From the NCBI GenBank assembly GCA_003151335.1, contig PLXE01000080.1, positions 19,620 through 83,619 of the forward strand: DNA of 64,000 nucleotides, in the 5' to 3' direction. Shown here piece after piece: positions 44,268-44,810 of this stretch. The position numbers and the translations under genes were made by a program. The stretch is from Acidobacteriaceae bacterium (GTDB lineage: Bacteria; Acidobacteriota; Terriglobia; Terriglobales; Acidobacteriaceae). Under the pieces are notes generated by a model. It ran no database searches, had not been told where the DNA came from, and saw only the letters and a program-made list of their open reading frames with translations. Position 1 is the stretch's first letter, and the number at the start of each line of letters is the position of its first letter.

Positions 44268-44296
44268 TTGACTATTTTTTTCATTAACTCTATACA
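44268..44296 (+). promoter_or_regulatory. Sigma70-type promoter
   Basis: TTGACT (44268..44273) - 17 bp - TATACA (44291..44296). Confidence 0.65.
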
Positions 44297-44364
44297 ACTA
44301 ACAAATTGCGATGAATTTTTTGTCGCAATGTTTCCATGACAAATGGAAGGGAGAATAGAAAACC

Positions 44365-44418
44365 ATGGCAACAAAAAAGGCTGCAAAGAAGAAGGCCGCA
44401 AAGAAGAAGAAGCACTAA
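44365..44418 (+). CDS. 17-aa lysine-rich peptide MATKKAAKKKAAKKKKH
   Basis: ATG with GGAAGGGAG SD, flanked by a strong promoter and terminator; below ORF track cutoff. Confidence 0.6.
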   Translation: MATKKAAKKKAAKKKKH

Positions 44419-44438
44419 CTCTTCTTGGACCTTAACCG

Positions 44439-44467
44439 GGGGGCGCGCAAGCGTCCCCTTCGTTTTT
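44439..44467 (+). terminator. Rho-independent terminator
   Basis: GGGGGCGC-GCAA-GCGTCCCC followed by TTCGTTTTT. Confidence 0.75.
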
Positions 44468-44576: not shown

Positions 44577-44810
44577 TTACTCAACCGCGACCTTCGTACC
44601 CTTCTGGCCCTGGCTCGACAAGTGCTCAATGCGCTCGTTGAGGACTTCCCGGATCGCCTTGAGGAACTCGACGCGTGAGTTCGCCAAGTGCTGCCGGACA
44701 GCGGGCGAAACCCCCAGGAATTCCCGTACGGTGTCCACGATCTCGCGGCAGGGGCAGTTCTGATAAACGTGTTCACTCGTCTGTGACTGGTTCTTCGGTG
44801 GCTGTTTCAT
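44577..44810 (-). CDS. Hypothetical protein linked to ArsA-type ATPase
   Basis: 77 aa ORF overlapping upstream ArsA stop (ATGA-type overlap). Confidence 0.65.
   Translation of the reverse strand: MKQPPKNQSQTSEHVYQNCPCREIVDTVREFLGVSPAVRQHLANSRVEFLKAIREVLNERIEHLSSQGQKGTKVAVE

Follow-up and report, generated by a model that had tools for sequence, protein, structure and literature searches.

In dual-function small RNAs, the RNA part acts by pairing with target mRNAs, as a rule together with Hfq. The enterobacterial SgrS/SgrT is such an RNA; its product SgrT is a 43-residue membrane-protein inhibitor, and most, not all, SgrS homologs carry an ORF of SgrT size, whose sequence is poorly kept (PMC4021124). 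In Vibrio cholerae, the dual-function RNA VcdRP encodes the 29-residue small protein VcdP (PMC8672173). We describe here, from Acidobacteriota, an RNA and peptide gene that is apparently undescribed so far, and that we read from sequence comparison as probably dual-function, a small RNA joined to a histone H1-like micropeptide.

The window, that is, the whole 64,000-nucleotide stretch of DNA that was analyzed, belongs to contig C69 of the 4.65-Mb draft genome of an Acidobacteriaceae bacterium. Rfam has no match in the window at the gathering score, and within the block described here it shows nothing beyond sub-threshold chance matches. Among 12 relatives, no Rfam match reached E<=1; we found nothing in the literature on such an RNA in Acidobacteriota. 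An earlier note on this DNA proposed a compact transcription unit for a lysine-rich peptide, and the promoter, hairpins, Shine-Dalgarno sequence, 17-codon ORF, and terminator that it described are all present where it placed them (Table 1). The TTGAC of the -35 element is retained in aligned relatives, none of which was chosen by its presence. We infer a transcription start near 44303.

Table 1. Features of the RNA and peptide gene, in window coordinates.
Feature	Position	Strand	Remarks
-35 element TTGACT	44268..44273	+	family consensus cTTGACa/t, T-tract just 5'
-10 element TATACA	44291..44296	+	17-nt spacer to the -35 element
5' hairpin 1, ATTGCGA..TCGCAAT	44305..44329	+	at or near the RNA 5' end; covariation
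uORF	44311..44358	+	present in the window as earlier described
Hairpin 2, TTTCCAT..ATGGAA(G)	44331..44349	+	TCGAT..ATCGA in other clades; covariation
Near-invariant GGGAGAATAG	44349..44358	+	Shine-Dalgarno sequence for the K/A ORF; GGGAG also kept in ORF-less RNAs
17-codon ORF MATKKAAKKKAAKKKKH, putative H1-like micropeptide	44365..44418	+	ATG at 44365, stop at 44418
GGCAAC at start codon (AUG-GCA-AC)	44367..44372	+	GCA in 137/137 ORFs
Intrinsic terminator GGGGGGCGC-GCAA-GCGTCCCCT and T-rich tail	44438..44467	+	GC-rich hairpin 44438-44459, GCAA loop

By DNA search, 45 of 61 relatives have the block, and an exact-pattern scan of named genomes found at least 117 loci. The named relatives are Terriglobales MAGs (Acidobacteriota); the loci of two of them, L008 and L066, are near-identical. 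Among the matches listed, all are from Acidobacteriota except L039 and L153, which are one and the same chance match at an XseB-like gene of Motilimonas. In a sample of 250 genomes from the family of the window (Acidobacteriota, Terriglobales), the pattern GGGAGAATAG-N2-8-ATGGCNNNNAAR occurs in 186 genomes, in 132 of the 177 good genomes, and in 64 of 79 genera, with at most two matches per genome and none in the controls. The promoter, the two 5' hairpins, GGGAGAATAG, a short ORF rich in Lys and Ala (the K/A ORF), and a terminator, detected at 133 of 135 distinct loci, form a recurring set in this family. The window genome has five copies of GGGAGAATAG, and the one at 44349 is the single copy that precedes a K/A ORF. 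In an unbiased class-wide sample, a covariance model detected 60 of the 74 genomes of the family and gave only weak matches outside it. One of these, L171 in the outgroup family f5, has the full layout with an 11-residue ORF, MAAKKAKKKKR, and the DNA search had yielded the same layout with a 14-residue ORF in a third family (L019, f3). In another family of the class, L170 (G222) and L168 (G191) have a GGGAGAAT-ATGGC start that leads into K/A/P proteins of 83 and 29-37 residues, which suggests that tail length is free to vary.

The peptides, 82 distinct ones from 137 distinct loci, are 12 to 30 residues long and are built from Lys, Ala, Thr, Pro, His, Ser, Val, and Gly alone. Lys makes up 54% and Ala 31%, and acidic residues, aromatic residues, and Arg are absent, a composition that agrees with the minimal histone H1-like tail suggested before; from composition, the micropeptide is likely a minimal H1-like nucleic-acid binder. 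Pfam gave no match, PF07382 (HC2) included, for a 22-residue member, a peptide too short for a powerful test. The earlier note had also proposed a search of related genomes and a comparison of synonymous with nonsynonymous change. The block proved conserved, and nearest pairs of equal length show 202 synonymous against 56 nonsynonymous changes where the expected synonymous fraction is 0.20, with the first five codons biased in these statistics because pattern-selected loci had to begin with MATKK or MAAKK. Runs of AAAAAA are avoided within the ORF (45, against 78 in shuffles, with 0 of 500 shuffles as low), as would be expected if slippage on AAA-AAA is harmful. By these measures the K/A ORF is under strong purifying selection, and the peptide is very probably translated.

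Hairpins 1 and 2 are conserved as structures. Across 61 distinct sequences, 93% of cells are paired, against 20-42% in slid controls, and both-side changes affect 73 cells, where shuffles give 20. Hairpin 1 has both-side changes at 5 of 7 pairs and is retained by lineages without the ORF; hairpin 2 shows a C-G to G-C exchange in 19 sequences, and is weak or lost in some clades. The idea that these hairpins gate translation is not supported as proposed: both are conserved and covary, but both lie 5' of GGGAG, which is left unpaired in the predicted fold. A role in 5' protection or in presentation therefore fits better than sequestration, and hairpin 1, directly after the predicted start site, would be well placed to protect the 5' end. 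An alternative in which its 3' arm pairs with the start codon was rejected, as it fails in the genus of the window, where the arm is TCGCAAT. The uORF exists as first described, but a regulatory role for it is not supported, for lack of general conservation. An ATG-initiated ORF of at least 8 residues ending at the same TAG occurs in only 36 of 137 distinct loci, its sequences are unrelated between clades and have no Shine-Dalgarno sequence, and within the genus of the window both sequence and start codon differ between species; we reject the uORF as a conserved regulator. In a Terracidiphilus-type clade (e.g. L045, L058, L095), hairpin 2 holds a near-invariant 8-residue ORF, MQPIEKGE, which ends at the TAG of GGGAGAATAG and probably arises incidentally from conservation of the hairpin and its loop.

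The block is far beyond chance, because the arrangement recurs in so many of the family genomes, the hairpins covary, and substitutions are biased toward synonymous change. On the sequence comparison, it is almost certainly a conserved unit, and the description of it as a compact, autonomous unit encoding a K/A peptide is supported.

Genomes negative for the family pattern were searched again, with the promoter and GGGAGAA alone and then with a covariance model, free of the ORF, of the promoter and 5' region. Ten turned out to be ordinary ORF-bearing variants (e.g. with MPAKKK or MAATKKA starts). In 27 genomes the promoter, hairpin 1, GGGAG, and terminator are present and a MATKK-type ORF is absent, having decayed or vanished. 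These genomes, from three other genera and one further species, comprise 12 of 12 in g50, 11 of 11 in g48, 3 of the 9 in g53 tested with the model, and one in g46. In L209 and L210 a decayed start can still be read as ACG-GCG-AAA-AAG-AAG/TAG. g48 may include Granulicella mallensis and g50 Terriglobus saanensis, and the genome G185 may be Granulicella tundricola. The g48 linker GGGAGCGCAGGCAAACGCAACC(A)AGGCAAAGCA..AAGGCAACACA averages 0.91 identity between species, with 45 of 57 columns invariant, while the flanks on both sides, at 0.32-0.36, are unalignable. Because this linker contains 1-nt indels, a conserved reading frame in it is ruled out. The g48 and g50 RNAs are predicted to fold much better than shuffled sequences, with z -6.3 and -4.6, respectively. 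An 86-row tree of RsmE places the ORF-less lineages inside ORF-bearing ones at two supported places, and G185 is ORF-less among congeners with the ORF, so that the ORF was lost at least three times independently.

A second short element accompanies the RNA. Of 133 ORF-bearing loci, 67 have AGGCAA in the interval from stop codon to terminator, where 9 would be expected, and every ORF-less RNA has one to four copies of GGCAA 3' of GGGAG, one of which, in the g48 and g50 RNAs, is predicted to sit in a hairpin loop. At the start codon, the GCA at codon 2 has no exception (137 of 137, against 44% GCA among the remaining Ala codons), which makes AUGGCA fixed and AUGGCAA almost fixed; the invariant GCA could also reflect translation initiation. 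In the rest of the ORF GGCAA is not favored, and its enrichment there through Ala codon choice was rejected, GCA being rarer before codons that start with A. In the window species the start-codon GGCAA is the only one; its 3' spacer lacks the second copy that half of its relatives have there, and RNA activity is therefore least certain in the window species itself.

As several lineages have retained the RNA after loss of the peptide, RNA and peptide each appear to have a function. A role of the RNA independent of the peptide is likely in the ORF-less lineages, and for the window species the balance leans somewhat the same way. A dual-function small RNA gene, which the earlier note had mentioned as a possibility, is now the best-supported reading because of the 27 genomes that keep the RNA without the ORF, and we hold it to be probable. 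That note had counted as evidence against its proposal any orthologs that retain the RNA and not the ORF, a pure small RNA; the outcome is mixed, as such orthologs exist in those genomes and most lineages keep the ORF under strong selection. Sequence comparison supports a unit that stands on its own, with selection acting on the peptide and also on the RNA where the peptide is missing.

The main competing account is that the locus is a peptide gene only, a very short mRNA for the H1-like peptide, and that ORF-less lineages re-used its promoter, hairpin, and terminator for an unrelated small RNA. It would suit the strength of coding selection, the same layout around the ORFs of outgroup families f5 (11 residues) and f3 (14 residues), and the missing 3' GGCAA in the window species. 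However, half of the ORF-bearing loci carry GGCAA between ORF and terminator, as AAGGCAAC(A), close to the version in the ORF-less RNAs; GGGAG and hairpin 1 survive ORF loss in at least three independent lineages; and AUG-GCA is invariant. We regard it as unlikely.

On the dual-function reading, a near-consensus sigma-70 promoter would produce an RNA of about 165 nt with a protective hairpin at its 5' end and the intrinsic terminator at its 3' end. The GGGAG Shine-Dalgarno sequence would, in most species, drive synthesis of a short polycationic peptide, almost entirely Lys and Ala, whose most likely role is nucleic-acid binding in the manner of a minimal histone H1-like tail. Separately, the RNA would regulate through GGCAA, unpaired or displayed in a loop between GGGAG and the terminator, and most simply it would be an Hfq-dependent base-pairing small RNA. 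Granulicella-like, Terriglobus-like, and some other lineages would retain the RNA alone, their peptide having been lost. Hfq is encoded in the host and in 30 of 31 relatives examined, and regulation through GGCAA with Hfq is put forward tentatively. A more speculative version, which we think quite unlikely, has the peptide assist the GGCAA-bearing small RNA as a minimal RNA chaperone or compaction factor, by binding its own RNA, the partner RNA, or nucleic acid of the ribosome or nucleoid; lineages that lost the ORF would have put hairpin-displayed GGCAA motifs in place of the peptide.

The RNA is found immediately 5' of rsmE, on the same strand, in g48, g50, g53, and one large clade with the ORF, as if it were a leader RNA or attenuator whose terminator controls rsmE in cis, the Lys-rich ORF being a leader peptide. 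The downstream gene, however, varies in identity and strand between clades: others have convergent genes there (a helicase, a coiled-coil protein), and in the window the next gene downstream is on the opposite strand. The neighbors in the window, a MacB-type ABC transporter pair and ArsA, are common only to L002 and L003, and as neighbors differ between clades, the unit is independent of them. The ancestral neighborhood has a divergent thiolase gene on the upstream side and rsmE or a helicase on the downstream side. In g48 (L224-L237), a conserved GTATnCT precedes the ATG of rsmE by about 6-9 nt in 10 of 10 aligned species, which suggests that rsmE has its own leaderless promoter, and the terminator closes the unit in every clade. 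With these points against it, cis control of rsmE is very unlikely. Elsewhere in the window, a 77-residue ORF (44577-44810, minus strand) overlaps the start of the gene for the ArsA-type ATPase (HSP20-like domain); it has no Pfam match and is conserved in L002 and L003 only.

Lys-rich N-terminal tails occur on larger proteins as well. DUF6496 proteins with long MATKKA/S-type tails are found at L175-L177, L184, L187, L189, L191, and L193-L195; some of their genes have a similar AGGGAGAA(T) ribosome-binding site. They appear as weak second matches of the RNA model, and a common ancestry or common control with the micropeptide gene is possible. In ORF-less genera, LigD-like ATP-dependent ligases (L183, L185, L186, L188, L192) also start with MATKK-(A/T/V)-(A/V)-KK, so that a Lys-rich tail at the N terminus recurs as a module in these bacteria.

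The micropeptide gene could accordingly be imagined as a drifting relic, the truncated K/A 5' end of a DUF6496-type or LigD gene, given that the same genomes encode both kinds of protein with MATKKA.. starts, that one DUF6496 protein has weak HC2 similarity, and that some have a similar GGGAGAA Shine-Dalgarno sequence; yet the micropeptide is served by a promoter and terminator of its own and is single-copy in nearly all genomes of the family, and strong purifying selection contradicts drift, which makes a relic hardly credible. Least probable of all is a CsrB/RsmZ-type sponge, in which GGGAG, with its GGA core retained with and without the ORF, would titrate CsrA: CsrA is absent from the window genome and from all 31 relatives, with positive controls, which refutes the idea for CsrA, and each RNA has one site that is not displayed in a loop, though another GGA-binding protein in its place is possible.

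This RNA and peptide gene is kept in most sampled genomes of an abundant, poorly understood family of soil bacteria. In many species the conserved peptide has only 12-17 residues (11 in the outgroup family), below the reach of the usual gene callers. Repeated loss of the ORF offers a natural comparison, Terriglobus and Granulicella against Edaphobacter and Terracidiphilus, that could separate the functions of RNA and peptide, and lets one ask how dual-function RNAs acquire or lose their protein half.

Among known systems, VcdRP/VcdP likewise joins an RNA regulator and a small protein in a single transcript; RNA, protein, and phylum are all different. Bacterial H1-like proteins (HC2, PF07382; the tails of DUF6496, PF20106) share the low-complexity K/A/P/T composition, and DUF6496 proteins with long MATKKA.. 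tails are encoded in the same genomes; the micropeptide differs in being the tail alone, 11-30 residues and free of any domain. SgrS/SgrT is similar in its own promoter, small 5' ORF, conserved short element before an intrinsic terminator, and Hfq-encoding host, and in both the ORF is patchy. Here, in a different phylum and with no homology to SgrS/SgrT, the product is an 11-30 residue Lys/Ala polycation, and the ORF is constrained in composition and under strong amino acid selection.
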